From a virus, in the IMG/VR virus record IMGVR_UViG_3300032326_000420, positions 1 to 23,411 of that record: a stretch of DNA of 23,411 nt. One strand, given 5' to 3'. A model generated the notes under the pieces. It did no database searches, had not been told where the DNA came from, and saw only the letters and a program-made list of their open reading frames with translations. How positions within the stretch are numbered: the first letter of the stretch is position 1; each line of letters begins with the position of its first letter. Shown here one piece after another: positions 4,520-20,350 of the stretch. Both the position numbers and the translations under genes were made by a program.

Positions 4520-6310
4520 ATGAAAAAAATCAATTTTAAAACATTAAAAGGTCAAAATTTTCTCAGTATTGGGAACGATCAAATCGTTGTCGATTTCCAA
4601 TCGGGATTCAATTTAATCACTGGTAAAAATTTAGACAATCCAGACAGAGTAAATGGTATTGGTAAGAGTTGTATCGCCGAACTTTTTTATTTTGCTCTTT
4701 TTGGTAAAACGATTCGTGAGATTAAGAAAGAATTCATCATCAATAATATCACCAAAGGAAAAGGTTATATCGAATTGCTGTTTGATGTTGAAACTGAACA
4801 AGACGTTCAATCATATACGATCAAACGACAAATAAAACCAAGCACAGTCACTTTGCTGAAAAACGATGAGGATATCACTAAAGATTCAATTGCTAATACT
4901 GATAAATTTATCTGTGATTTAATTGGATCTAATTCCGTTGTCTGTCGAAGCTGTGATATATTATCATTGTCTGATAACATTCCATTCATGGCTAAAAAAC
5001 CAGAGGATAAAAGAAAATTCATTAATGATATTTTTTCTTTGGAAATTTTTGGTAAAATGAATAATGAGTTGAAAAATCTTATTCGCGATAACAAAAATGA
5101 TATAAACATTTCTTCGACAAAATTGGATGAAATCAATCAGACTCTACAGACTCTTAATGCTCAACGGGAAGATTATGATAGAAAAATTGCCGAGAGAGAA
5201 GAACTTCTCGAAAGAAAGCGTAAAGAAATCCAAAGCAATATCGAAAAAACTTCTAAAGATATTGCCAAAATGAATATACCAGCCATCGATCCTTTACATC
5301 AAGAATTGAATAAATATAGCGATGCTTGGAGTAAAATAGATAGTAAAATTGAATCCATCAACCATAATGTTTCTTCCAAAGAAACGCTCAAAAGATTAAA
5401 AAATAATGAAATTAAAGCGGTTTCATCGGTTGATGGTGTTAAATGTGATAAATGCCTTCAGGACATTCCACATACCCATGTAGAACATCTAGAGAAATTG
5501 AGAACGCAATATGAATCAGAATTGAAAGAAATTATTTCGGAGATTGAAAGTCTCAATGAACAAAAACTTGAATTGATTTCTAAGAGAAGTAAAATTCAGA
5601 AGAAATTGGGTGAGTTGCAGGATCAAATCAATGATGCCAAAATCAATAAGCAAAAGTTGATTGGTCTGACGAATTCTCTCAAGCAGTATCAACAAGCTCT
5701 TGATGATTTGAAATTGGAGGAATTACCGAAACCTAATTTTGGGGAAAATATCGCCAATACTGAAAAACGCAAAGAGACAGAAGAATTAAATTTCCAATTG
5801 TTGAAACAAAAAGCTCAAGATTTTGATGTATGCAAATTTGTATTGAGCGAGGAAGGTGTTCGTAGTTTCGTTGTTAAACGATTATTGGCTATGATGAATT
5901 CGAGTATTCAAAAATATATTAATGATTTGGGTATGTCGATACGTTGCAAATTCGATGAATATTTTGATGAGCAATTATCAAATGATAAAGGTAAAGAAAT
6001 ATCATATTGGAATTTGAGTGGAGGAGAACGACGAACTGTCGATCTAGCATGTGCTTGGTCGTTCAAAGATTTAAAACGGAAAATTTCTGGTATTTCATCT
6101 AATGTTGAATTTTTCGACGAATATCTGGATTCGACGCTGGATTCGACTGGTATTGACAAACTCATCGAACAAATTAAATGCAGAATTGATAGAAATAATC
6201 TCTCGGTGTATGTTATTTCTCATCGAGTGGAAACGAACAAACATGTTACAGGTGAAATAGTTGAACTCGCAAAAGAAAACGGTTTAACTCGACGGGTTTT
6301 TAGTGCTTGA
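4520..6310 (+). CDS. 46: gp46 recombination ATPase subunit (SbcC/Rad50-like)
   Basis: This 596-aa SMC-like ATPase is the partner of gp47 (T4 gp46 is 560 aa). The Walker A region ends NGIGKS (45-50). Two long coiled-coil arms flank a zinc-hook CDKC (C309, C312), which would dimerise complexes. The ABC signature is LSGGE (499-503) and Walker B ends FFDE (D533, E534), followed by the D-loop LDST and a VISHR segment. The gene end overlaps the -35 of the next gene's promoter: the stop TGA is part of TTGACA. Confidence 0.96.
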   Translation: MKKINFKTLKGQNFLSIGNDQIVVDFQSGFNLITGKNLDNPDRVNGIGKSCIAELFYFALFGKTIREIKKEFIINNITKGKGYIELLFDVETEQDVQSYTIKRQIKPSTVTLLKNDEDITKDSIANTDKFICDLIGSNSVVCRSCDILSLSDNIPFMAKKPEDKRKFINDIFSLEIFGKMNNELKNLIRDNKNDINISSTKLDEINQTLQTLNAQREDYDRKIAEREELLERKRKEIQSNIEKTSKDIAKMNIPAIDPLHQELNKYSDAWSKIDSKIESINHNVSSKETLKRLKNNEIKAVSSVDGVKCDKCLQDIPHTHVEHLEKLRTQYESELKEIISEIESLNEQKLELISKRSKIQKKLGELQDQINDAKINKQKLIGLTNSLKQYQQALDDLKLEELPKPNFGENIANTEKRKETEELNFQLLKQKAQDFDVCKFVLSEEGVRSFVVKRLLAMMNSSIQKYINDLGMSIRCKFDEYFDEQLSNDKGKEISYWNLSGGERRTVDLACAWSFKDLKRKISGISSNVEFFDEYLDSTLDSTGIDKLIEQIKCRIDRNNLSVYVISHRVETNKHVTGEIVELAKENGLTRRVFSA

Positions 6311-6334
6311 CATTCATATTGTGTATAATATATA
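6307..6334 (+). promoter_or_regulatory. Sigma70-like promoter for the glycosyltransferase gene
   Basis: TTGACA (6307-6312), 16-nt spacer, TATATA (6329-6334), then 5 nt to the ATG at 6340. An overlapping TATAAT occurs at 6331-6336. The -35 contains the gene 46 stop codon. Confidence 0.6.
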
Positions 6335-6339
6335 ATCAC

Positions 6340-7551
6340 ATGTTCAATACAAGCCCTTTTCCGTCTCCATCACCATTCGCTCAACCGTTTCCTCAAAACG
6401 TATTTGAGTTGAAAAGTGAATTACCATCCTTTGAAAAAAAGGATAATAATTATGTAAATTTTGTAGCGGATCGACAAGGCTGCGGTCAATGGAGAATAGG
6501 TTGGCCCGAATTTCATATCAATATGAATAATTTGGGTGAATCGACTTCTTTGACCAAAATGATCTTTACTAAAGAATGGTATAACGATGTAAAAACCGTC
6601 AAACTTCAAAGACAGGCATCCACGCCACAAAAAGAATTTTTCAAATTCCTCAAAAGCATACAGCAAGAGATGGGATTTAAGATTATTTACGAAATTGATG
6701 ATGTGGTGTTTAAGGAAGAAATACCTGATTATAACTGTTATAAATCTTCATTTGATAATGAAGAAATTCGTCAAAATTGTGTTGAAATGATTAACATGGC
6801 TGATGAAGTCACTGTTACGTGTAAATACATGCGAGATCTCTTTATCGAAAAAACAGGTCAACATAAAATATCAGTAGTTCCTAATTTTCCACCTGAATGG
6901 TGGATTGGTAAATATTATGATTTTAATAAATTGATGCATAATCATCAAAAAAATAGAAAAAAACCCCGAATTTTGTATTCTGGTTCGGGAGCACATTTTG
7001 ATGTGAAAAATGCGACCAATCAACAGGATGATTTTTCCCATGTTATTAAATTTATCGTTGATAATCGACATAAATATCAATTTATTTTCATCGGGTCTTA
7101 CCCACCACCTCTTCATCCATTTATCACTAGTAAAGAAATTGAATATCACTCATGGCAGTCACTGATGAATTATCCTAAATTTATTCAAAGTCTTAACCCG
7201 CAATTATTATTAGCTCCTTTGATGGATATTCCATTCAATAGGTCAAAATCTGATATCAAATATATCGAAGGTGCTTGTTTAGGTATTCCTTGTATGTGTC
7301 AAGATATGGTGACTTATCAAGACGCTCCAGATTTTCTCAAATTTAAAGATTCTGAAGATTTGGCTATGAAGGTTGAATATTTATTGGATTGGAAAAATCG
7401 AAATAAATATTATAAATTAATTCCTGAATTGAGAAAATTGGGCGAATCGAGATTCTTAGAAAGACCCGAAAATATTGGAGCTTTCATGGAAGCGATGAAT
7501 ACGCCATTTGGTGATCCTAGTAGAAAATATTTGAGACCTTGGAATGATTAA
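6340..7551 (+). CDS. Glycosyltransferase, GT-B type (GT1/GT4-like)
   Basis: This 403-aa protein would transfer a sugar from a nucleotide-sugar donor; the acceptor (DNA base, host envelope or virion protein) cannot be told from sequence. The C-terminal half has the pattern of GT-B enzymes: PRILYSGSGAHFD starts the second Rossmann domain, FIFIGSYPP follows, and DIPFNRSKSDIKYIEGACLGIPCM resembles the donor-binding helix with its Glu. The N-terminus is Pro-rich (PFPSPSPFAQPFP). The start at 6340 is chosen over an upstream TTG at 6307 because that TTG lies in the promoter. It ends tail-to-tail with the next minus-strand gene, sharing 4 nt. Phages of this type often carry such enzymes. Confidence 0.75.
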   Translation: MFNTSPFPSPSPFAQPFPQNVFELKSELPSFEKKDNNYVNFVADRQGCGQWRIGWPEFHINMNNLGESTSLTKMIFTKEWYNDVKTVKLQRQASTPQKEFFKFLKSIQQEMGFKIIYEIDDVVFKEEIPDYNCYKSSFDNEEIRQNCVEMINMADEVTVTCKYMRDLFIEKTGQHKISVVPNFPPEWWIGKYYDFNKLMHNHQKNRKKPRILYSGSGAHFDVKNATNQQDDFSHVIKFIVDNRHKYQFIFIGSYPPPLHPFITSKEIEYHSWQSLMNYPKFIQSLNPQLLLAPLMDIPFNRSKSDIKYIEGACLGIPCMCQDMVTYQDAPDFLKFKDSEDLAMKVEYLLDWKNRNKYYKLIPELRKLGESRFLERPENIGAFMEAMNTPFGDPSRKYLRPWND

Positions 7552-7829
7552 TTTCTGGTAAACCCTGAATATTGTTGCAGAGTCGGTCGAAGACGCTCAA
7601 ACATTCCTTTTAAGTTCTCCAGAGGTGTCATGTTTGAAGGATTTTTGAAAAATTCTTCTCTGTTGTTTTGGTAATAAGCTATCGTTCCTTTTATATATTT
7701 TTCAATATATGAAGAAATTTCATTTACCTCACTCTTCATTTTTTCGATGGTTGGATCATAATTATCGTATGATGATTGAAAATCCATACTTTCATAAATC
7801 TTGCTCAAATCTTCGAAATAATTATCCAT
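7548..7829 (-). CDS. Small hypothetical protein with N-terminal LSKIYESM motif
   Basis: The start at 7829 (93 aa) is chosen because GTTAAATA ends exactly 5 nt before it; an in-frame ATG at 7844 would include the box. The protein is helical and charged, with a likely coiled coil in the middle (IEKMKSEVNEISSYIEKYI). Its N-terminal EDLSKIYESM resembles the KLYQSIL and KLYLESV motifs of two other proteins in this window. The function is unknown. It is divergent from repeat copy R1, so it forms the outermost minus-strand member of the repeat array. Confidence 0.65.
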   Translation of the reverse strand: MDNYFEDLSKIYESMDFQSSYDNYDPTIEKMKSEVNEISSYIEKYIKGTIAYYQNNREEFFKNPSNMTPLENLKGMFERLRPTLQQYSGFTRN

Positions 7830-7834
7830 AACAT

Positions 7835-7842
7835 TATTTAAC
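7835..7842 (-). promoter_or_regulatory. Candidate late promoter box (GTTAAATA)
   Basis: GTTAAATA on the minus strand, then ATGTT, then the ATG at 7829. It has the same 5-nt spacing as other late-type boxes here. Confidence 0.4.
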
Positions 7843-7848
7843 ATATAA

Positions 7849-7876
7849 TTGACTTTTTAAATTAAGTTAATATATA
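7849..7876 (+). promoter_or_regulatory. Sigma70-like promoter in front of R1
   Basis: TTGACT (7849-7854), 16-nt spacer, TATATA (7871-7876), 5 nt to the R1 ATG at 7882. The sequence around the -35 (ATTGACTTTYTAA) is shared with the region before R2. Confidence 0.55.
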
Positions 7877-7881
7877 ACGAC

Positions 7882-7980
7882 ATGTCTAATAATATCCAAA
7901 ACAACGATAAGCACATCCACGGCGATGTGCAAGACCCGAATGTAACAGAAGCAACTACGCCGTTGGATGATGCGTCTTGT
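7882..7980 (+). repeat. Repeat copy R1
   Basis: First of four roughly 100-nt direct repeats that begin with a start codon. It contains a 7-bp hairpin (7911-7917 with 7924-7930, loop CACGGC), a 6-bp outer pairing CAAGAC/GTCTTG (7930-7935 with 7974-7979) and an inner CAAC/GTTG stem (7952-7955 with 7962-7965). Confidence 0.9.
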
Positions 7981-7983
7981 TAG
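7882..7983 (+). CDS. 33-aa ORF encoded by R1
   Basis: The repeat is read as MSNNIQNNDKHIHGDV followed by QDPNVTEATTPLDDASC, and then a TAG stops it. In R2 and R3 the same peptide continues into longer proteins. It may be a short peptide, a leader, or just the coding shadow of a structured repeat. Confidence 0.3.
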   Translation: MSNNIQNNDKHIHGDVQDPNVTEATTPLDDASC

Positions 7984-8003
7984 CTTGATTTTTAAGATGG
8001 TAT

Positions 8004-8011
8004 GATAAATA
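8004..8011 (+). promoter_or_regulatory. Candidate late promoter box (GATAAATA)
   Basis: GATAAATA, then AAGAC, then the ATG at 8017: the same box-5-nt-ATG geometry as the minus-strand late genes, here on the plus strand. Confidence 0.4.
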
Positions 8012-8016
8012 AAGAC

Positions 8017-8244
8017 ATGGAATACAATATATGGATAGAACCCGATTCTTCGAGTGGTGATAATTATCTTAAATTCTCTGGAAAAGTTGCTCTTAATGAT
8101 AAAAATATAGAATGGTTACTAGCAATAATAAAAAAGGTTTCGAATAGGGAAATAAATTACGTCAATCCTCTATTTTCTTCAGATCCAACAAGCAATTCTG
8201 AAATATCTCTTGGACTTCTTCCAATCTCGAAGTCCTCAGAATAA
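8017..8244 (+). CDS. Small hypothetical protein in cassette R1-R2
   Basis: 75 aa from the ATG at 8017, chosen because of the box ending 5 nt upstream (an ATG at 8002 lies ahead of it). It has no recognisable domain; it starts MEYNIWIEPDSSSGDNY and has one likely helix (NIEWLLAIIKKV). Unlike the plus-strand genes after R2 and R3, it is not fused to the repeat peptide. Its 3' end overlaps the convergent minus-strand gene by 83 nt, so one of the two may not be real. Confidence 0.42.
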   Translation: MEYNIWIEPDSSSGDNYLKFSGKVALNDKNIEWLLAIIKKVSNREINYVNPLFSSDPTSNSEISLGLLPISKSSE

Positions 8245-8365
8245 TTTTATCATCACAAGATACTGCAACTAGAAGTGAATCGGTAGATAGAAGATTTGGA
8301 TTGGTCTTCATTGCTTCATCTCTGGTCATCGTCTTGGTGTTATTGATATTAAATTCTATCTTCAT
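8162..8365 (-). CDS. Small hypothetical protein in cassette R1-R2
   Basis: 67 aa, starting MKIEFNINNTKTMTRDEAMK, with a mixed strand/helix look and a C-terminal EEVQEIFQNCLLDLKK helix. It is not recognised. It starts 33 nt from the R2 start codon in divergent orientation, repeating the layout seen at R1, R3 and R4. No clear late box is seen upstream, unlike its neighbours. Confidence 0.45.
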   Translation of the reverse strand: MKIEFNINNTKTMTRDEAMKTNPNLLSTDSLLVAVSCDDKIILRTSRLEEVQEIFQNCLLDLKKIED

Positions 8366-8366
8366 A

Positions 8367-8393
8367 TTGACTTTCTAATTTTGGAAGTAAGTA
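8367..8393 (+). promoter_or_regulatory. Weak sigma70-like promoter in front of R2
   Basis: TTGACT (8367-8372), 15-nt spacer, TAAGTA (8388-8393), 5 nt to the ATG at 8399. The -35 block is shared with R1 but the -10 is poor. Confidence 0.3.
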
Positions 8394-8398
8394 GGAAC

Positions 8399-8499
8399 AT
8401 GGTAAATAATATCTCAGCTAACGTAGAGCACATCCACGGTGATGTGCAAGCCACTAATGTAACAGAAGCAACTACGCCGTTGGATGATGCGGCTTGTTG
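8399..8499 (+). repeat. Repeat copy R2
   Basis: Second copy. The hairpin is at 8428-8434 with 8441-8447 (loop CACGGT); the outer pairing is CAAGCC/GGCTTG (8447-8452 with 8491-8496), a pair change relative to R1. The first 30 nt differ more from the other copies than the structured core does. Confidence 0.9.
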
Positions 8500-8638
8500 T
8501 GCTTCGGATTTTGTGTTGGAGATTTATGAACGGGCAAAGTATCAGAGGAAATTAGCCGAAGAATCATACTCAAATACGATGAAAGCACTTCAAAAAATCA
8601 TTGATGATTGTGAGAAATCATTGCGTGATAGGCAGTAA
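8399..8638 (+). CDS. Repeat-fused small protein (R2)
   Basis: 79 aa. The first 36 or so residues are encoded by repeat R2 (HIHGDVQ..NVTEATTPLDDAACCAS) and the rest is unique: EIYERAKYQRKLAEESYSN and a charged helix ending KSLRDRQ, likely a coiled coil. A TTG at 8381 is an alternative start. Nothing in it is recognised. Its end overlaps the convergent minus-strand gene by 41 nt. The shared N-terminus with the R3 protein but different C-terminus points to a modular, cassette-like construction. Confidence 0.55.
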   Translation: MVNNISANVEHIHGDVQATNVTEATTPLDDAACCASDFVLEIYERAKYQRKLAEESYSNTMKALQKIIDDCEKSLRDRQ

Positions 8639-8849: not shown

Positions 8850-8897
8850 GGCTTGCTATTTGCACTGTCGATGATAAATAAACAACATGTCTAATAA
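8839..8897. repeat. 59-nt perfect repeat, copy A (divergent promoter block)
   Basis: Identical over 59 nt to 9323-9381. It holds the start of a minus-strand MNE gene, a minus-strand GCAAATA, a plus-strand GATAAATA and the start of the R repeat. Confidence 0.9.
8857..8880. promoter_or_regulatory. Divergent pair of late-type boxes at R3
   Basis: GCAAATA on the minus strand (8863 to 8857) ends 7 nt before the ATG at 8849. GATAAATA on the plus strand (8873-8880) ends 6 nt before the ATG at 8887. Confidence 0.4.
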
Positions 8898-8986
8898 ATT
8901 TCAAAACAACGATAAGCACATCCACGGTGATGTGCAAGACCCGAATGTAACAGAAGCAACTACGCCGTTGGATGATGCGGCTTGTT
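8887..8986 (+). repeat. Repeat copy R3
   Basis: Third copy. The hairpin is at 8916-8922 with 8929-8935; the outer pairing CAAGAC/GGCTTG (8935-8940 with 8979-8984) has one A-G mismatch, an intermediate between R1 and R2. Confidence 0.9.
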
Positions 8987-9171
8987 GTGCTTCTTTGTTT
9001 GTTGAAGGTGTGTGCGTTGAAAGTTCTAGATTCCCACATTGGATTGGGAAAACCGCAGATCAAATTCTTGATATTATAGAAGATGGTGTGCAAGAAATTG
9101 CAAGTCGTCGCGGGGTTTCACTTCATCGATTTGAGAATCGTGATCTCGCGCTCAACGAACTCGATGCGTGA
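8887..9171 (+). CDS. Repeat-fused small protein (R3)
   Basis: 94 aa. The first 36 residues or so come from repeat R3 (ending DDAACCAS), then a unique part: LFVEGVCVESSRFPHWIG, then TADQILDIIEDGVQEIASRR and a polar C-terminus. No domain is recognised. Cysteines cluster at the junction (AACCAS, GVCVES). The gene overlaps the convergent minus-strand gene by 54 nt at its 3' end. Confidence 0.55.
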   Translation: MSNKFQNNDKHIHGDVQDPNVTEATTPLDDAACCASLFVEGVCVESSRFPHWIGKTADQILDIIEDGVQEIASRRGVSLHRFENRDLALNELDA

Positions 9172-12362: not shown

Positions 12363-12591
12363 GGGTTTGGACGATGCGGAGAATAATGTTATTAATAACT
12401 TTATCAATTTATTAAATGATAAAGAATATGACATTCCTTTCCCTAATCCAAAATTGGAAATAGTCAGAAAAGTAATTAAAGAGAGATCTGATTATTACTT
12501 TAAAATGGCTGACGGTCAACATGGGGTTGCCAAGGGTTTTCAGAAAAAAATTGAAAACAACAAATTAGAGCTTGAAAAAGCCAGAGCATAA
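12337..12591 (+). CDS. Small helical hypothetical protein
   Basis: 84 aa, starting MTIQEAYNKGLDDAENNVINNF, followed by a short proline-containing loop (DIPFPNPKLE) and a charged helix (VRKVIKERSDYYFKMADG) with a coiled-coil-like C-terminus (KKIENNKLELEKARA). It has no known domain. It overlaps the previous gene by 26 nt, which suggests coupled translation. Confidence 0.65.
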   Translation: MTIQEAYNKGLDDAENNVINNFINLLNDKEYDIPFPNPKLEIVRKVIKERSDYYFKMADGQHGVAKGFQKKIENNKLELEKARA

Positions 12592-12613
12592 GCTAAATTC
12601 AAACATAACATAT

Positions 12614-12967
12614 ATGAAAAATACATACGTAGCAATTATCGATCAAATCGGTAGAAATATTATCGGCACATTGGTGAAAGAAACGGAGACCAGCATTACT
12701 CTCCATAATCCTGTAATTCTTTTTACACAGCCGACTCAGAACAAGCAATTGCAAGTTCAAAGTTATCCTGTTTTCTTTTTTGAATTTCTCAAAAAAGAAC
12801 ATAGAGAACAGAATAATTGGACTTATTCCAAATCTAGCATTGTTACTAGCGATGTGATTTTGGATGATTCGATTATTCTCCAATACCAGAAAATTAATAC
12901 GCCACCTTCTGTTGAAGAATTAGCCCCCACTAATAATCCAAAAGTGGTGAGTATTAATGATCTATAA
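12614..12967 (+). CDS. Sm-like small beta-barrel protein (putative)
   Basis: 117 aa from the ATG at 12614 (a TTG at 12572 would overlap the previous gene). The pattern YVAIIDQIGRNIIGTLVKETETSITLHNPVILF, namely strand, Gly turn, G-x-L, acidic turn, strand ending in an Asn-Pro, resembles Sm/LSm-type folds, which bind RNA in rings. This is a fold guess from pattern, not a family match. It lies just upstream of uvsX and ends 18 nt before a terminator hairpin. Confidence 0.6.
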   Translation: MKNTYVAIIDQIGRNIIGTLVKETETSITLHNPVILFTQPTQNKQLQVQSYPVFFFEFLKKEHREQNNWTYSKSSIVTSDVILDDSIILQYQKINTPPSVEELAPTNNPKVVSINDL

Positions 12968-12985
12968 TAAAAATAAATAACCAAT

Positions 12986-13018
12986 AAGCCTTTTCTGTGT
13001 CACACACGGAAAAGGCTT
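12986..13018 (+). terminator. Strong rho-independent-type hairpin before uvsX
   Basis: AAGCCTTTTCTGTGT pairs with ACACGGAAAAGGCTT through 15 bp (one T-G), with a 3-nt loop CAC, followed by TTTAATTT. It is the clearest terminator in the window and separates the small late genes from uvsX. An A-rich stretch upstream could let it act in both directions. Confidence 0.8.
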
Positions 13019-13038
13019 TTAATTTAAAAAATAAAAAT

Positions 13039-14163
13039 ATGAGTGATAAAATGGATAAAGATATTATGGCATCTTTGAATGCCTTGGACGATATGGTTCC
13101 TTATTCGGCGTATCTTCACGAATCGACATTATCATCCGTCGATGATTGGATTGATACGGGAAGTATGGTTCTCAATGCTTTAGTTTCTGGTTCACTGTAT
13201 GGTGGTATTCCAAAAGGGAGGATCACCCAATTGGCAGGACCGAGCCAAAGTTTCAAAAGTGGTTTAGTATTGCAGATTTTGGCAAATGCTCAAAAGAAAG
13301 GAATGATTCCTGTTATTTTTGATACGGAAGGTGCTATTGAACCAGAATCTGCTGCTAATTTTGGTTTAGATATTTCTAAAGTAAAATACGTTGGGTGTGA
13401 ATCGGTAGAACAAACTAGAAATGCTATTTACAAATTTTTGAAAAATGTTCGCGATAAAAAACAATTTGGTAAGTTTATTATTGCCATCGATTCGTTGGCA
13501 AATTTGAATTCTGAAATGGAATTATCAAGAATGGATAAAGATTCCACGTCTGCTGACATGGGAACATTTGCTAAATCGGTTAAGAGTTTGCTTAAAACAT
13601 GTACAAATATGTCTACGCTTACCAAGACCCCTATTGTCATTACGAACCATGTTTATGATGATCCTAGTGCGATGTATCCATCTTTGGAGAAAAATATGCC
13701 AGGTGGTAAAGCTGCGGTATATCTACCATCGGTGACTGTTCAACTTGCTAGAAAATTGGTTAAAGATGCTGATAACAAACAGGTAACTGATAAGCTTTCT
13801 GCATCTCAAAAGAATTACTCAGGCGTTGTTATTCGTGCTCTGACTGTTAAAAATCGCTTCATCAAACAATATCTCGAAGGTGAATTTTACCTATCCTTTA
13901 GTAAAGGATTGGATAAATATTATGGTCTTCTGGATATTATGAAAAATATGGGTGTTGTTGATAATGCTGGCGCATCCTATACTGATTGGCAAGGTAATAA
14001 ACTCGGATACTATAAAGTTTGGGCGAAAGATACCGATCTTTGGGAAAATACTTTATTACCCGAATTGGAAAAACGTATCAAAATTCATTGGGCTTACGGC
14101 TCTACTCCAGAGGATGACGATTTGGCTAATTTGGAGGATGAAGATATTGATAGCGAATCATAA
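13039..14163 (+). CDS. uvsX: UvsX RecA-like recombinase
   Basis: This 374-aa strand-exchange protein (T4 UvsX is 391 aa) forms filaments on single-stranded DNA with UvsY and drives recombination-dependent replication. Walker A is GPSQSFKS (67-74), the typical UvsX form, and Walker B is IIAIDS (D151). An acidic C-terminus (EDDDLANLEDEDIDSES) follows the core. The ATG at 13039 is chosen; an in-frame GTG at 12997 lies inside the terminator hairpin. No clear promoter is seen between the terminator and the ATG, only an A-rich stretch. Confidence 0.95.
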   Translation: MSDKMDKDIMASLNALDDMVPYSAYLHESTLSSVDDWIDTGSMVLNALVSGSLYGGIPKGRITQLAGPSQSFKSGLVLQILANAQKKGMIPVIFDTEGAIEPESAANFGLDISKVKYVGCESVEQTRNAIYKFLKNVRDKKQFGKFIIAIDSLANLNSEMELSRMDKDSTSADMGTFAKSVKSLLKTCTNMSTLTKTPIVITNHVYDDPSAMYPSLEKNMPGGKAAVYLPSVTVQLARKLVKDADNKQVTDKLSASQKNYSGVVIRALTVKNRFIKQYLEGEFYLSFSKGLDKYYGLLDIMKNMGVVDNAGASYTDWQGNKLGYYKVWAKDTDLWENTLLPELEKRIKIHWAYGSTPEDDDLANLEDEDIDSES

Positions 14164-14934
14164 ATGAAAATCCAAGACGGAATACATTTATTTCATGGTG
14201 ATTGTCTGGAAGTCCTGAAAAAACTTCCAGACAATTCTATTGATTTAGTATTGGCTGATCCCCCATATGGTAAAATGGCACATGGTAACAGGTGGGATAA
14301 AATTATCGATTTTGATGTGTTGTGGGCCGAGTTATCTCGCATCACTAAAGAAAAAACACCGATTGTTTTATTCTCTCAACAACCATTTGCATCTTCTCTT
14401 ATTAATAGTAATTTTTCTAAATTTAAATACGAATGGATTTGGGATAAACACATTTCTAGAGGAATGCAAACAGCAAAATTTAAACCTATGGTTCGCCATG
14501 AAAATATTTTAGTTTTTGGCGAGCAAGGTCATAACTATTTTCCCATAATGATCGAAAGGGATAAACCGATAAAAAGAAAAGCTTATCCAAAAGATGATAC
14601 TTATTTCAATGGTAAGAATGATGGTGAATACAGAACCTATACCCATAAAAATCCTGAAACAATTCTTGAGGGATTCTGGGAGAAAAACAGAGGCAAGATT
14701 CATCCAACACAAAAACCCATATCTTTATTGGAATATCTAATTAAAACCTACTCCAAAGAAGGTGATATAGTATTAGATTTTTGTTATGGATCTAACTCGT
14801 GTGGAGTCGCCGCATTCAACACTAAGAGAAAATATATAGGTATTGAAAAAGATGATAAATTTTACGAGGAAGGTAAAAACCGTTTGATTACTCATTTATC
14901 ATCATCCAATGGTGATAATTCTTCGGTTTCTTAA
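14164..14934 (+). CDS. DNA methyltransferase, beta class (N6-adenine or N4-cytosine)
   Basis: 256 aa. Motif IV DPPY (32-35) precedes motif I (D205 FCYGSNSCG), the order of beta-class enzymes; HPTQKP lies just before motif I, and RKYIGIEKDDKFYEE follows it. It would methylate an amino group in DNA, perhaps to avoid host restriction. Motif I reads GSNSCG where GSGTTG is usual. The gene begins right after the uvsX stop, so the two are probably co-transcribed, and its end overlaps the convergent gene by 47 nt. The DPPY form leaves open whether adenine or cytosine is the target. Confidence 0.88.
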   Translation: MKIQDGIHLFHGDCLEVLKKLPDNSIDLVLADPPYGKMAHGNRWDKIIDFDVLWAELSRITKEKTPIVLFSQQPFASSLINSNFSKFKYEWIWDKHISRGMQTAKFKPMVRHENILVFGEQGHNYFPIMIERDKPIKRKAYPKDDTYFNGKNDGEYRTYTHKNPETILEGFWEKNRGKIHPTQKPISLLEYLIKTYSKEGDIVLDFCYGSNSCGVAAFNTKRKYIGIEKDDKFYEEGKNRLITHLSSSNGDNSSVS

Positions 14935-16387
14935 ATCCACGATCTTTATACTCGCCGACTTTATTGGTCAACCTATCCTTTTCAATTTGCTCTGTCATGT
15001 AACTCATGATGGAGCTTTCTTTTAATGTGCCTTTTTCCATTTTTTCAATCAAATCTGCGAGCGCATTTATTTTTTCAAAGTCTGTAGTACCACTTCTAAG
15101 CATTTCGTCAAGTATCTCGTGTAGTTCATCGATTGATTTACCTGCATATTCATCGGTAGATGCTTTTTTCTTTGCTTTTTGGAGTTTTTCATCATCTTTC
15201 TTCTTTTTATCGACATATTTACGAATAGTCATATTCGTTTCGAGTTCTTCTTTCTTGCTCATACCACTACTCAAAGGTTCATCGTCATGCACAACGGCAT
15301 TTACGATGAGGTCTCTCCATTTATTCACAATAGCTTTTTCTTTTTCATTGATGATGTTTTTAGATACCAACATGTCTAAGAACTCATCCGTGTAAAACTC
15401 TAAACTGGATTTGAAAACTTTATAATCCATTGCGTCTTCGACTTCGCTTTCACTAGTGCCGATTTCGTAATAATAGTCGAACTCTTCGAAAACTTCCAAA
15501 GATAGATCGGGATCATCTTCATCCAAAGCTTGTTCAATACGAGCTTCGATTTCTTCTTTTGGTACTTCCACACCATTTTCTCTATCTTGTTGAAAACTAT
15601 TTAATAATGGCACGATTAACTCATAGTTATCAATTTTATACGAGATAAAAGTTTCGAGAACTGAAATAATCGTATCCAACGCATAATTTGGATCTATTGT
15701 GTTTTCTATGTCAGCTGAACCAGATATAGATGTATCATATTTTCCTTCTGACCTGATAGTCTTTAGGAAATTTGGTGGCATATATCTTTTAGCTTTTCTA
15801 TTAATTTTAACAATAATGGGCCAAACTTCACCACGTTTGCTTAAAAATGCATCAATTGGGGTTCCGTAATTAGACTCAATTTTCTTGATGTATCCTTTAG
15901 CTCTATTTTTTCCACGTAGTCCACTTATCCATTTTGATCTCCAATTTTCAATATAAAACGCATCGGTAATCTCGTCAAAAAATTCAGGAGTTAACAATTC
16001 ATCACTCATTTGATTAGCTAAATAAGACAACACCCATTGATTTTTTTTACCAGTATCATTCGAACCCGATTGTATGTATTCTATATAATCTTTTTGTAAT
16101 TCTGGTGATTTAGCCATTAAGTGGGTGAAATATTGACTCACTGAATCATATTGGAATTCTACTTTGTATTTTTTGCGATATAGGAATTCTACAATAAAAT
16201 CGTTTAGAGTTTTTGCAGTCGCTGCTGGCTTCCAACCCGAAAACAAAATTTTTCCAATAGCTGGTCTCACTTCTTTTAAAAATTTAGCAACGTTTTCGTC
16301 TTTTTCTGGTCTGGTGGTTATTTTTTTAGACATTTCACTCAAAATTGAATGTCTTTCCATCAGATAATTTAAATCATATTTATGCAT
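14888..16387 (-). CDS. Large hypothetical protein, late-type
   Basis: 499 aa, largely helical, unrecognised. The middle is very acidic (EIEARIEQALDEDDPDLSLEVFEEFDYYYEIG), followed by a Lys-rich coiled coil (KKKKDDEKLQKAKKKA) and a C-terminal FKKPKNYHHWM segment. The start at 16387 is supported by ACTAAATA ending 5 nt upstream; that box overlaps the stop codon of the preceding minus-strand gene. Minus-strand orientation and a late-type box among plus-strand replication genes suggest late expression, so a virion or assembly role is possible. Confidence 0.7.
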   Translation of the reverse strand: MHKYDLNYLMERHSILSEMSKKITTRPEKDENVAKFLKEVRPAIGKILFSGWKPAATAKTLNDFIVEFLYRKKYKVEFQYDSVSQYFTHLMAKSPELQKDYIEYIQSGSNDTGKKNQWVLSYLANQMSDELLTPEFFDEITDAFYIENWRSKWISGLRGKNRAKGYIKKIESNYGTPIDAFLSKRGEVWPIIVKINRKAKRYMPPNFLKTIRSEGKYDTSISGSADIENTIDPNYALDTIISVLETFISYKIDNYELIVPLLNSFQQDRENGVEVPKEEIEARIEQALDEDDPDLSLEVFEEFDYYYEIGTSESEVEDAMDYKVFKSSLEFYTDEFLDMLVSKNIINEKEKAIVNKWRDLIVNAVVHDDEPLSSGMSKKEELETNMTIRKYVDKKKKDDEKLQKAKKKASTDEYAGKSIDELHEILDEMLRSGTTDFEKINALADLIEKMEKGTLKESSIMSYMTEQIEKDRLTNKVGEYKDRGFKKPKNYHHWMMINE

Positions 16388-16392
16388 GATAT

Positions 16393-16400
16393 TATTTAGT
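16393..16400 (-). promoter_or_regulatory. Candidate late promoter box (ACTAAATA)
   Basis: Minus-strand ACTAAATA then ATATC then the ATG at 16387. TAAATAATATCATGCA is shared exactly (16 nt) with the start region at 16833. Confidence 0.45.
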
Positions 16401-16833
16401 AGTCTTGTTTAATTTCTCGATTTTCTTCTTTTGATAGTTTATTCAAAAGTCCCTTTCTGCGGTAGCCATAATCTTGTCTCTTCAAGTAATTATTGACTAG
16501 TTCTCTATCCAACATCTTCGATTTGAGTTCGTCAATATCTATATTATCGATATTATCATTTATCAATTTAACCACGAACGGTCTAAGATTTGTACCATAA
16601 GATTTTTTCTTCATTGTCACGACTTCTGGTGATTTAATTGAATCTGGTAGCAATCTGTAAATAAAATCCCACATCGCGAATGTAGATGCTGTAGTGAATC
16701 CCAAATCCAAAAATATATTGTAACTTTCTTTATACGCATCTCTCAATGACATATCATCAAACAAATGTTTTGATGTGCGATACTCGTTTAATACTTTTAT
16801 AGAATCGTTATAAAATTTTATAAATTCTTGCAT
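16396..16833 (-). CDS. Hypothetical protein, late-type
   Basis: 145 aa, starting MQEFIKFYNDSIKVLNEY, alpha-helical, with an aromatic central segment (FTTASTFAMWDFIYRLLPD) and a basic C-terminal region (KRQDYGYRRKGLLNKLSKEE). It is not recognised. GATAAATA ends 5 nt before the ATG. It sits 8 nt upstream of the 499-aa gene and is probably its late operon partner, though the downstream gene has its own box. Confidence 0.68.
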   Translation of the reverse strand: MQEFIKFYNDSIKVLNEYRTSKHLFDDMSLRDAYKESYNIFLDLGFTTASTFAMWDFIYRLLPDSIKSPEVVTMKKKSYGTNLRPFVVKLINDNIDNIDIDELKSKMLDRELVNNYLKRQDYGYRRKGLLNKLSKEENREIKQDY

Positions 16834-16838
16834 GATAT

Positions 16839-16846
16839 TATTTATC
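16839..16846 (-). promoter_or_regulatory. Candidate late promoter box (GATAAATA)
   Basis: Minus-strand GATAAATA, ATATC, ATG at 16833. It lies back-to-back with the plus-strand promoter at 16852. Confidence 0.5.
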
Positions 16847-16851
16847 TATAT

Positions 16852-16879
16852 TTGACATTTATGATGTTTGTAGTATGAT
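16852..16879 (+). promoter_or_regulatory. Sigma70-like promoter, leaderless geometry
   Basis: TTGACA (16852-16857), 16-nt spacer, TATGAT (16874-16879), 6 nt, then the ATG at 16886. The spacer shares ATGATGTTTGT with the gene 43 promoter. Confidence 0.65.
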
Positions 16880-16885
16880 ATTATC

Positions 16886-17557
16886 ATGTATAATCCAAAT
16901 GTTTCTTCAAATATGCGAATATTTACAGCATCTAAATGCGATGATTATCAATTTTTATTAAATGAAAGTCTAATCCAACATGATTTGGAAGATTTTTTGA
17001 TCGCAAAATTGAATAATAAAACACCTCTAGCTACAGTTTATAACGAGTTTCTGGACACCGCTCAGAAAGAAAACTATGAGTATGTTATACTAACACACGA
17101 TGATGTCATTTTTGAACACGATCCACGGTTGAAATTGGAAGATTTATTTCATCAATTTGATGTGGTAGGTGTTGCGGGTTGTTCTAATGCTACGATTAAA
17201 TCGCCAGCACTTTGGCACTTGATGGGTGAGGGTCACTTACACGGCGCAGTTGCCCATAAATACGGTGATAAAAAATTTATGACCAGTTTCGGTGTTTATC
17301 CACACCGTGTCGTCATGATTGATGGGGTGTTTATGGCATTGAATAGAAAAGCTATCGAGACTGTCAGATTTGATGACAACTGTCCATCGGCATGGCATTT
17401 TTATGATCTTCTAGCAACTTTATCAGCACATAAACAAGGTTTGAAAGTGGGGGTTGGTGATATATTAATCACACATGAATCACCGGGACTACAAGAATTT
17501 ACAGAGGATTGGAAAGCTGGTGAAAGATACTTTTTGAATAAATTTGGCCAAGATTAA
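16886..17557 (+). CDS. Glycosyltransferase-like protein, GT-A type (StrF-like)
   Basis: 223 aa. It has the layout of the glycosyltransferase domain related to StrF: an N-terminal strand, a YVILTHDDVIF segment with the acidic metal/nucleotide-binding residues (HDDV), a central MIDGVFMALNRKA segment, and WHFYD followed by AHKQGLKVGVGDILITHES. It probably transfers a sugar, but neither donor nor acceptor can be inferred. A diverged piece of the same family (C-terminal 35 residues or so) lies at 18591-18725, beyond the nuclease-like gene, so this locus has been rearranged. The gene meets the minus-strand gene tail-to-tail with 4 shared nt. Confidence 0.78.
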   Translation: MYNPNVSSNMRIFTASKCDDYQFLLNESLIQHDLEDFLIAKLNNKTPLATVYNEFLDTAQKENYEYVILTHDDVIFEHDPRLKLEDLFHQFDVVGVAGCSNATIKSPALWHLMGEGHLHGAVAHKYGDKKFMTSFGVYPHRVVMIDGVFMALNRKAIETVRFDDNCPSAWHFYDLLATLSAHKQGLKVGVGDILITHESPGLQEFTEDWKAGERYFLNKFGQD

Positions 17558-18516
17558 GGTATATATCTATTCAAATTTTTGTTTCTTTTTTCTTCTCTTA
17601 TTAAGATAAATTTACCGTTTGATTTCATCATCAAATCTTTAGCAAATTTTCTCTTCGATAAATCGTTTCTATATTTTTCTCGATATGTTTTATTCATTCT
17701 GGGTATCTTGACATTATTAAATGTAATAGCTTGGTCGATATTTGGATGCCAATGATTTCCATCATATTCTAAGATGATGGAAATATCTTCTATATTTTTC
17801 AATAATAATCCATCTAAACTTTTAAACACTACCAAATCGAAAAAGTATTCATTGTATATATCTTTTTTAATTTTTAATTCATCATTTCCATATAAACATA
17901 ACTTTTCATCTATGGAATTATCTTTAATAAATTTTTTAATATATTTTGTTGCGGATTTGGAATAATTACAACCGAACCGCTTATAGTAGTCATCTTTATA
18001 TCTTTTTATATGCGAGTCTTTAATTTTTCTTTTAACTTTTTTGTTTTTTGATGGGTGGATAAATCCATATTTTTCTAAATTAGTTTTATATATTTTTTCT
18101 TTAATAATAGGCGATCCACACATAAACCCCCCGTAATTTTCCATAATCGTTTCGACTTTTCTATTATGAATTATTTTAGATTTGGAAGGATTGTCAACAC
18201 CATAATTAGCCATACAAGTTTTTGATTTTTCTTTCTGTACATTTACATTATTATTTGAACATGTGGTGGAGCAAAATCGCCTGTATTCTCTTTCTTCTTT
18301 TCTCAAGTGATGTGGAAATCGTACAAAACCACCACAATGTTCACACACTGGTCTTTCTTTCATATTATTCAAAAGACAGTATATTCTTTCAGCGTAATGA
18401 GAATTTTCTGGTAGAAAATTGGTTATTACTAATAAATCATCATAATATGGTTGAGTGTAAATTTGTTTGGTTAATTTTCTCTCGTATTGTGTTTGGTAAA
18501 AATCATAAGTGGTCAT
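17554..18516 (-). CDS. Homing-endonuclease-like protein (zinc-binding, phage type)
   Basis: 320 aa from the ATG at 18516, chosen because GATAAATA ends 5 nt upstream; an in-frame ATG at 18531 includes the box. Near residues 70-105 a CEHCGGF...RRFCSTTCS cluster forms a four-Cys zinc site. It is followed by repeated KxxNxxxYG-type units (ANYGVDNPSKSK, ENYGG, LEKYGFIHPSKNKK), which probably bind DNA. Then comes ILEYDGNHWHPN, resembling the catalytic strand of Vsr/PD-(D/E)XK-type nucleases. Such proteins are common as free-standing endonucleases in T4-like phages. It sits between a glycosyltransferase and a remnant of a related one. Confidence 0.7.
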   Translation of the reverse strand: MTTYDFYQTQYERKLTKQIYTQPYYDDLLVITNFLPENSHYAERIYCLLNNMKERPVCEHCGGFVRFPHHLRKEEREYRRFCSTTCSNNNVNVQKEKSKTCMANYGVDNPSKSKIIHNRKVETIMENYGGFMCGSPIIKEKIYKTNLEKYGFIHPSKNKKVKRKIKDSHIKRYKDDYYKRFGCNYSKSATKYIKKFIKDNSIDEKLCLYGNDELKIKKDIYNEYFFDLVVFKSLDGLLLKNIEDISIILEYDGNHWHPNIDQAITFNNVKIPRMNKTYREKYRNDLSKRKFAKDLMMKSNGKFILIREEKRNKNLNRYIP

Positions 18517-18521
18517 ATTAT

Positions 18522-18529
18522 TATTTATC
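18522..18529 (-). promoter_or_regulatory. Candidate late promoter box (GATAAATA)
   Basis: Minus-strand GATAAATA, ATAAT, ATG at 18516. Confidence 0.45.
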
Positions 18530-18556
18530 ATTTCTATGATGAAATCGTAAAAATGA

Positions 18557-18584
18557 TTGACAATTACTCAATATCCATTAGAGT
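18557..18584 (+). promoter_or_regulatory. Sigma70-like promoter in front of the gene remnant
   Basis: TTGACA (18557-18562), 16-nt spacer, TAGAGT (18579-18584), 6 nt to the ATG at 18591. The register is the same as the gene 43 and 16886 promoters but the -10 is weaker. Confidence 0.45.
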
Positions 18585-18590
18585 AATGTT

Positions 18591-18725
18591 ATGAAATGTT
18601 TAGAAAAAAACTTGAAAATAGGAGTAGGTGATGTTATGATCACTCACGCATCACATGGACTTGAAAAAATCACGGATGATTGGAGAGTTGGAGAACAATA
18701 TTATTTGAATAATTATGGAAAATGA
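18591..18725 (+). pseudogene. Glycosyltransferase C-terminal remnant
   Basis: The 44-aa frame MKCLEKNLKIGVGDVMITH... followed by ITDDWRVGEQYYLNNYGK matches the last 40 or so residues of the 16886-17557 protein (GLKVGVGDILITHES, EDWKAGERYFLNKFG), with clear divergence. It keeps a start codon and a promoter in register, as if the interior of a former full-length gene had been deleted. It might still be expressed as a short peptide. Confidence 0.72.
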
Positions 18726-19047
18726 AGCATCTTATACAATAAAATCTGGTATATCGGCTACTCAAATAGCCATGCCTAAACTATTTCAAGGAAATATTGA
18801 TAATCTTTCGCAATTTCGTGAATATGTGAATGAAAAATTGAAAAGCGCACTCACGAAAGAGCGATCTGAATTGACCAATGATGAAGAATTTGCTATCGCA
18901 TACAGCGCAGGAGTGGAAATACGCACCATTTTAAATGAAAATGGTAAGTGGGTGCAACAAACAGAGCCAACTGGTATCATCAAAGATGGTGGTAAATGGG
19001 TGGTTTTAACGAATACAAACGGGTGGATTTTAAATGACAGAGATTGA
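18715..19047 (+). CDS. Hypothetical protein upstream of gene 41
   Basis: 110 aa, starting MENEASYTIKSGISATQIA. The middle is helical (FREYVNEKLKSALTKERSELTNDEEF), and the end is beta-like with repeated Trp-containing turns (GKWVQQTEPTG, GGKWVVLTNTNGWIL). It is not recognised. It overlaps the remnant by 11 nt and gene 41 by 14 nt, so translation is probably coupled to the helicase gene. Confidence 0.65.
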   Translation: MENEASYTIKSGISATQIAMPKLFQGNIDNLSQFREYVNEKLKSALTKERSELTNDEEFAIAYSAGVEIRTILNENGKWVQQTEPTGIIKDGGKWVVLTNTNGWILNDRD

Positions 19048-20350
19048 TTTAGATTATTTTGAGAAGATTTTGGTGAAAAATGCTATGACTAATTCTAGTT
19101 ATTTGGCATCTATCTCTGATTATGTCCAACCAAAATACTTCAATGATAAGTTTATCGCCAAATATTTCGAAATAGTATCGGATTTTTACGATAAAAGGCA
19201 AGCATTGCCGACTTTTACAGAGATAAAGACGTATTTGATCTCCGATGAATTGAAAAATGGGTTCAAAAAGCTCATAGAATCGTTTAAAGAGCTAGATTCC
19301 ACACAAAATAACGACGAATTGTATGCAAATACTGAAAAATTCCTCAAAGAAAGAGGAATGTATCACTCAATATTGGAATCTGCTGAGAAAATCTCCGAAG
19401 GAGACGTTGATACATCTGAAATTGTTGAAAAATTTGAGAAAATTGCGGGTATAAACCTCAATTTAGACAGAGGTATTGAGATTTATGGTGATGTTGAGAA
19501 GGTTATTGACGATATTTTGAACGATGAGACCATGATATCATCCAAATGGTCATGGTTGGATGATGCTTTGGGGGGTGGTTTTGCCGAAGTGGGCAAAGCA
19601 TTATACGTATTTGCTGGTCAATCCAATATCGGTAAGAGTATTTTTCTAGGTAATGTGGCTGCTAACATGGCATCACAGAACAAAAACATACTAGTAATAA
19701 CATTAGAGATGTCGGAAACGCTCTATGCGAAGAGAATAGCATCGAATATTACCAAAATACCGATGAAAGACTTCAGACATAACGTTCCGACACTGCGACA
19801 TGCTTTGGAAGAGGAGCATGACAAGACAGGTGGTAGGATTTACATTAAAGAGTTCCCCCCATCGACCATTACACCTAAACAATTAGGCGCATTTATCAAA
19901 AAAATGATTGATTCTGGCATCAGAATTGATGGTGTTGTGGTTGATTACCTAACATTGTTAACTGCTGCTGGTTCTAATTCATATGAGAAAGGTAAAAACA
20001 TCTGCGAACAGATCAGAGCATTATCTTATGTGTTTAAATGCCCATTTGTATCCGCTTGTCAGTTGAATCGTAGTTCCATTAATGAAAATAACCCTGATAT
20101 GTCGGGTATTGCAGAGAGTCTTTCTATTGCGATGACAGCAGACGTTATTGTGTCCATCTTTCAAAATGAAGAAGACCAAGAATTGGGCGTTATTCGTCTT
20201 GGTATGATGAAAAATCGATTCGGTCCAAGGGGTATGGTTCAAACTATGAGAATTGATTACCCTACATTATCGATTTATCAGTCTGATGAAGATGATGAAG
20301 AAATTATGTCTGATGATGATCTAAGTTTATTGGAAAAATTTAGCGATTAA
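19034..20350 (+). CDS. 41: Replicative DNA helicase gp41 (DnaB-type)
   Basis: 438 aa (T4 gp41 is 475). It is the hexameric 5'-3' helicase that unwinds the fork together with the primase and loader. A helical N-terminal domain of about 150 residues is followed by a RecA-type core: Walker A GQSNIGKS (195-202), VITLEMSE, the Walker B strand IDGVVVDYL, the QLNRSS sensor, and an arginine-finger-like region (MMKNRFGPRG). The C-terminus is acidic (DEDDEEIMSDDDLS). Neither a primase (gene 61) nor a recognised gene 59 loader is seen next to it. Confidence 0.95.
   Translation: MTEIDLDYFEKILVKNAMTNSSYLASISDYVQPKYFNDKFIAKYFEIVSDFYDKRQALPTFTEIKTYLISDELKNGFKKLIESFKELDSTQNNDELYANTEKFLKERGMYHSILESAEKISEGDVDTSEIVEKFEKIAGINLNLDRGIEIYGDVEKVIDDILNDETMISSKWSWLDDALGGGFAEVGKALYVFAGQSNIGKSIFLGNVAANMASQNKNILVITLEMSETLYAKRIASNITKIPMKDFRHNVPTLRHALEEEHDKTGGRIYIKEFPPSTITPKQLGAFIKKMIDSGIRIDGVVVDYLTLLTAAGSNSYEKGKNICEQIRALSYVFKCPFVSACQLNRSSINENNPDMSGIAESLSIAMTADVIVSIFQNEEDQELGVIRLGMMKNRFGPRGMVQTMRIDYPTLSIYQSDEDDEEIMSDDDLSLLEKFSD

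Follow-up and report, generated by a model that had tools for sequence, protein, structure and literature searches.

A mobile endonuclease cassette in a phage glycosyltransferase gene that probably carries a replacement for the gene end it displaces

Engineered home-and-rescue gene drives place a nuclease in a target gene and supply a recoded segment through which that gene stays functional. In fungal mitochondria, endonuclease elements called mORFs are described in atp6 of Allomyces macrogynus and in atp6, atp9, cox2, and nad3 of Glomus; the endonuclease ORF lies in the gene, a foreign C-terminal end is present in frame so that the gene is a hybrid, and the native C-terminal end, which resembles that of close relatives, is left downstream (PMC3630166). 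The same account gives the Glomus endonucleases as LAGLIDADG or GIY-YIG enzymes co-transcribed with the gene (PMC3630166). Free-standing phage homing endonucleases (HEs) are described as lying between intact genes and cutting hundreds to thousands of base pairs away (PMC2988022), and the phage methylase gene of ShiLan is reported to contain an HNH insert that is out of frame (PMC11855218). Here we analyze a phage locus in which a mobile HE cassette of ~1.15 kb has very probably entered a glycosyltransferase (GT) gene at the codons for HFYD, bringing a replacement 3′ end and displacing the native end to a downstream stub.

The DNA analyzed (the window) is a virus record of 23,411 bases with T4-type replication genes, among them what we take, by eye, to be UvsX, DNA polymerase, and gp46/47. 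The GT gene (16886-17557, + strand) encodes 223 aa and matches Pfam Glyco_tranf_2_5 (E = 3.2e-12). It is followed by a divergent HE gene (17554-18531, - strand; 325 aa; PHROG 3339, DUF7487) and by a 44-aa stub ORF (18591..18725, + strand) with homology to the GT from codon 2 (18594). The end of the stub overlaps by 11 nt the start of g110 (18715..19047, + strand), a short gene that is native to the interval between the GT and gp41, just as a native GT end overlaps its next gene. The conserved right neighbor, gp41 (19034..20350, + strand; phrog_19, 2.2e-75), encodes a gene-41-type DnaB helicase that is 97% identical to gp41 of L003/L014. As the original prediction proposed, the stub resembles the C terminus of the GT (residues 183-222, 21/40 identical, BLASTP E = 4e-17), is clearly diverged from it (53% protein identity), and is separated from it by an endonuclease-type gene on the other strand. 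Its view that the GT locus had been entered by a gene of the homing-endonuclease type also held. GT and stub are the only two GT-like places in the entire record. The pN/pS of the stub against relatives was 0.35-0.50, a value that says little on selection (43 codons; intact pairs gave 0.09-0.37).

The arrangement had been attributed to a tandem pair of GT genes that was invaded by an endonuclease, with the second copy mostly deleted, and an HE flanked by a GT and a GT-like tail is what such an event would leave. We gathered relatives via gp41 (26 loci) and via the GT (best 80 of 528 and best 80 of 514); tallied by contig name over the gp41 and GT collections, these comprise 93 different GT-bearing contigs. 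The GT lies upstream of gp41 in relatives, usually close or overlapping (gp41 was not found in L058, L068, and L115). In all 21 relative records searched whole, some of them 108-202 kb long, the GT was single-copy, and tandem GT genes were seen in 0/21. Among 135 loci searched, a second GT-like match occurred only in L105/L106, which carry the cassette, and in the distant L141. Because the GT is single in 21/21 relatives, we dropped the tandem-pair model; moreover, the L093/L102 comparison below goes from one gene to gene, HE, and stub without a tandem stage, and we consider such a pair very improbable. Rather than what was left of a second, deleted GT copy, the stub appears to be the original GT end, and it is the full-length GT that has the foreign tail. 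Neither do relatives always have the short form, nor is the fragment an independent small protein. The window HE and g110 proteins had matches in 0/21 relatives, and the GT had no match in the annotated phage collection. One GT relative (L131, 42% identity) comes from the uncultured Candidatus Marinamargulisbacteria genome AG-905-D08; this could be a phage contig that was assembled into the genome of its host, in which case it hints at the host.

An empty allele was found for one carrier of a homologous cassette, L102. L093 and L102 are 98.4% identical over 1,362 nt of left flank, ending at CATTTTTACGA (HFYD), and 99.0% identical over 2,824 nt of right flank, starting at L093 position 1463. 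Between these exact borders, L102 has 1,321 nt in place of 100 nt of native GT. The GT body of L102 (N-part) is identical to that of L093 at 176/180 residues, and its stub, 15 codons long with an end that overlaps the gp41 start, is identical to L093 and L095 at 15/15 residues. The new C-part of L102 is sister to that of L105 (support 99/96), and holding the N-parts of L102 and L105 together was rejected (p-AU 2e-6). Placing the C-part of L102 with its N-relatives was not rejected in the larger set (p 0.11); we take the DNA break to decide the L102 case despite this value. Judged from these comparisons, the GT tail and the HE travel together, and the GT body does not travel with them.

A group I intron or an intein-like split gene, with the N-part of the GT spliced to the stub, would also put an HE between two GT segments, and the split gp41 of L024 indicates that intervening sequences occur in these phages. 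However, the GT frame stays open up to a stop codon of its own ahead of the HE, and there was no Rfam match at gathering scores in the window, L102, or L105. Since 100 nt of native GT are gone in L102, splicing cannot restore the gene, and since the HE is on the strand opposite the GT, it is not part of a translated insert. We regard splicing as an extremely unlikely explanation. In L024 (6001-8954), ~1.6 kb interrupts gp41 at residue ~362, a gap in which a weak PHROG 3339 match appears to lie; this interruption is likely an intron or intein.

A homologous cassette also occupies the same GT codons in L105. L105 and L106 represent a single phage (3499/3500 nt match where the two were compared), to which L156 also belongs (99.97% over 3,405 nt, the contig ending inside the HE). 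The order in L105/L106 is GT, an opposite-strand HE homologue directly behind it, a native-type stub, two GIY-YIG-type genes, and gp41. The L105 stub is nearest to L097 (36/43); a C-part grouping of L105 with its own stub was not rejected in the larger set (p 0.38). The HEs of L102 and L105 are 49-54% identical to that of the window (L105, 54%; L102, 52%) and 70% identical to each other. This architecture therefore recurs in three phages, with carriers making up 3/93 contigs (two phages) plus the window. As 15-codon stubs like that of L102 escape tblastn, these counts are lower bounds. In viral_contigs, a single-protein query found no close HE relatives, and an alignment of the three HEs found only the known carrier contigs and one more of the same phage. 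Plasmids yielded no HE, and the phage collection gave weak partial matches in 20 records.

The interval between the GT and gp41 varies in other ways. In L105, further GIY-YIG-type endonuclease genes lie between the GT stub and gp41 at 6142-6966 and 7603-8457 (the first matches PHROG 314 at 1.8e-36; the second was judged by eye); this site is a hotspot. Small lineage-specific insertions recur in L007, L012, L017, L019, L020, L024, L070, L073, and L075. More divergent g110-like ORFs were seen by eye in L070 (4840-5316) and L073 (4671-5051), and in L073 the start of this ORF overlaps the GT end as in the window.

The HFYD codons are conserved across most GT orthologues. Taking the left border of L102 versus L093 as the guide, the homing or insertion site in the window would be CATTTTTATGAT (17396..17407, + strand). 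The native N-terminal part of the GT would then be 16886..17407, which trees group with L003/L014, and 17408..17557 (+ strand) would be a foreign, cassette-borne C-terminal coding segment, in frame and with its own stop. At the right border of the cassette, the target codons recur in inverted orientation (CATTTTTACGAT on the - strand, 18544..18555). An inverted copy of this kind is present just upstream of the HE start for all three HEs. L102-L105 DNA homology (73% over 1,320 nt) ends rightward at this inverted copy (CATTTTTAYGAT), as does window-L102 homology; window-L105 homology continues through an adjacent TTGACA, which in both the window and L105 is directly beside the copy. A degenerate pattern of the target codons, expected 0.03 times in the window, was found twice, in the GT and in the inverted copy. 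Among the best 80 of 528 GT loci, the only opposite-strand matches were the copies in L102, L105, and L106 and one in L075. When the inverted block was combined with a late-promoter-like TAAATA, a scan of viral_contigs found it in four contigs, each belonging to one of the two carrier phages already identified. The inverted block may be an operator, or it may be an element end. For I-TevI, binding to an operator at the enzyme's late promoter is described as being just as tight as binding to the homing site (PMC2988022).

Beyond the inverted copy, an outward promoter-like site, TTGACA-N16-TAGAGT (18557..18584, + strand), lies ahead of the stub. The proposal that stub and GT share a leaderless register is borne out in part: the GT has TTGACA-N16-TATGAT-N6-ATG and the stub TTGACA-N16-TAGAGT-N6-ATG, so both have TTGACA, N16, and N6-ATG, although bare consensus matches are not significant (18 found versus 15.9 expected). 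A TTGACA-like box at matching distance precedes most GT orthologues, L016 being an exception. Upstream of the GT, in window 16834-16885 and the corresponding regions of most relatives, the sequence is of the leaderless type TTGACA-N16-hexamer-N6-ATG. Late-type TAAATAAT boxes sit almost on the start codons of the HE and m145.

We built separate trees for the two parts of the GT, with lineages labeled A (L005, L007-L010, L012, and kin), B (L003/L014), and D (L017-L021, L024, and L027), and carried out AU tests on a small set of 18-19 rows and a larger set of 64 rows. In N-part trees, the window GT grouped with L003/L014 (93/88 in one tree, 99/91 in another), and grouping it with the distant D group was rejected (p-AU 0.0028, small set). 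In C-part trees, which cover the last 43-48 GT residues, the window GT instead fell outside A/B, the group to which the stub and all near relatives belong (96/93 and 99/97), and the stub joined the L003/L014 GT (91/92 and 95/88). For the C-part, the small set rejected a clade of window GT and stub (p-AU 0.0045), window GT with L003/L014 (p 0.023), and stub with the D group (p 0.009). In the larger set, window GT with stub, L003, and L014 was not rejected (p 0.23), and the window GT as nearest outsider of A/B was compatible with the best tree (63/81). Because the replaced segment is short, its trees are weak; in raw residue matches, the window stub is slightly closer to L008 (30/43) than to L003 (26/43). 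Among the relatives, none was found to supply a close empty allele for the window. There is nonetheless a good, if not closed, case from these trees that the full-length window GT is a chimera, native up to HFYD (about 17407) and foreign from there to the stop. An origin of the whole full-length GT as an A-type import was dropped after the separate N-part and C-part trees.

If the GT tail had been duplicated locally in the phage, one copy had then evolved fast, and the HE had later inserted between the copies, similar trees could result, as short tail trees leave room for this. Yet L102 and L105 share HE and GT tail and not the GT body, and the cassette borders are alike in all three phages, so that we give a duplication almost no credence. 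Another possibility is that long co-conversion with an A-type left arm brought in an ordinary free-standing HE, with a junction that fell in the GT and left the old 3′ end over. HEs are known at exchange borders in phages, according to PMC10448857, and the window is a mosaic in which the methyltransferase (75% versus 62-64%), m145, and m500 are A-like, and pol, gp41, and DHH are B-like. However, the N-part of the GT groups with B and not A, which puts the exchange border inside the GT; the left flank of L102 is 98% native right up to HFYD; and the same codons were struck in three phages. We therefore regard co-conversion as unlikely and favor a cassette that carries its own GT end.

The mosaic block at 12572-16833, where methyltransferase, m500, and m145 are like the L009/L012 lineage (pol, gp41, and DHH being like L003/L014), appears from these comparisons to be a second exchange besides the cassette. 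The N-part of the window GT is 65% identical to that of L003, far below the 97% of gp41, which points to either fast divergence or an earlier exchange at this locus. Elsewhere in the window, two short stretches (8381-8638 and 8887-9171) inside otherwise unmatched ORFs are 93-96% identical at the protein level to the L014 genome and are perhaps regulatory DNA or RNA.

The window HE matched PHROG 3339 'homing endonuclease' (4.5e-14) and Pfam DUF7487 (1.7e-9; 38.4 bits, above the gathering score of 27 bits), as did the L105 and L102 HEs. It contains zinc-finger-like Cys pairs, DUF7487, and a C-terminal LEYDGNHWH motif. The C terminus of all three HEs contains LEYDGxxWH, which we take to resemble Vsr. 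A six-row profile of the C-domain gave one PDB match at E ≤ 10, a weak one (E = 0.011) to 3R3P, 'Mobile intron protein', which is presumably I-Bth0305I. Vsr models matched only the remote relatives L151 (4.6e-5, under the cut-off) and L048 (0.0058), and a profile search with the whole HE returned only a weak match to an unrelated protein. Structure predictions of the HE were poor (pLDDT 40 and 63), and Foldseek with these models found nothing at E ≤ 0.001. The motif and the 3R3P match hint weakly at a Vsr/EDxHD-like enzyme. An HE of the I-Bth0305I type would share the C-terminal motif hhE-x-x-G-x-x-W-H; unlike that type, the window HE is not in an intron.

Compared with described systems, the cassette is most like the fungal mORFs. 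A foreign end is fused in frame to the gene, as indicated in L102 by the DNA break and the tail shared with L105 and, more weakly, in the window by trees; a native end is displaced past the endonuclease ORF in the stubs of L102, the window, and L105. Unlike the Glomus mORFs, the phage cassette has an opposite-strand HE with DUF7487 and a Vsr-like motif, a phage GT as target, and an inverted target copy at its far end. The resemblance appears to be one of architecture, with a nuclease that, by family matches, is of a different type. Like the Seg and Mob endonucleases of T4-like phages, the HE is beside conserved replication genes, sporadic, and mobile between related phages; unlike them, the cassette interrupts conserved codons within a gene and brings an end for that gene. 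Because the insert lies within the GT at HFYD, we rejected its classification as a free-standing, intergenic HE of the T4 type. ShiLan, as described in PMC11855218, is similar in having an HE inside a phage gene with no intron or intein, and differs in that one reading frame is kept through the insert and that no replacement gene end is described there. Titles and abstract starts in a limited open-access literature gave no phage example of an end-carrying endonuclease element, making this the first phage case as far as searched.

If the GT is a chimera and the stub its native end, the HE would have inserted as a cassette carrying an in-frame replacement end. At its left end, the cassette would hold the last ~49 GT codons in a foreign version that continues the reading frame of the resident gene, so that GT of full length could still be produced; this would be followed by the opposite-strand HE, the inverted 12-bp target copy, and the outward promoter. 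During co-infection, the HE would cut uninvaded GT alleles at or near HFYD, and repair off cassette-bearing genome copies would bring in the replacement end and the HE. As the sequence downstream of the site is different in the replacement end, the filled allele would no longer be cut. A cut at HFYD would sever the last ~50 codons, within which G189, V190, I195, H197, S199, G201, L202, and G212 are invariant in 17/17 aligned GTs, so a bare insertion would probably kill the GT; the sequence suggests that the replacement tail restores it. That all three phages have kept the stub is plausibly due to the start of the following gene lying within it, as that of g110 does in the window and that of gp41 in L102; in L105, overlap of the stub with the next gene was not seen.

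More tentatively, the cassette could be a natural phage home-and-rescue drive, in which the re-encoded end resists cleavage and the inverted target lets the HE repress its own late-type promoter; we hold this to be possible and would not yet favor it. Unlike the engineered drives, it would be natural, work in a phage, and do without a guide RNA. If true, a single recognition sequence would determine where the element homes and how strongly the nuclease itself is expressed.

Replacing the part that is destroyed would be a third way, besides introns and inteins, for selfish endonucleases to occupy a conserved gene and leave it functional. The principle is already known from fungal mitochondria, and a phage case with another type of nuclease would make it a recurrent solution, which the L093/L102 pair makes testable. 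The arrangement of gene, opposite-strand HE, and orphan gene tail provides a signature for searches; annotators would otherwise label the stub an unknown small protein. The cassette also illustrates a route by which the tails of phage enzymes may be swapped between lineages.
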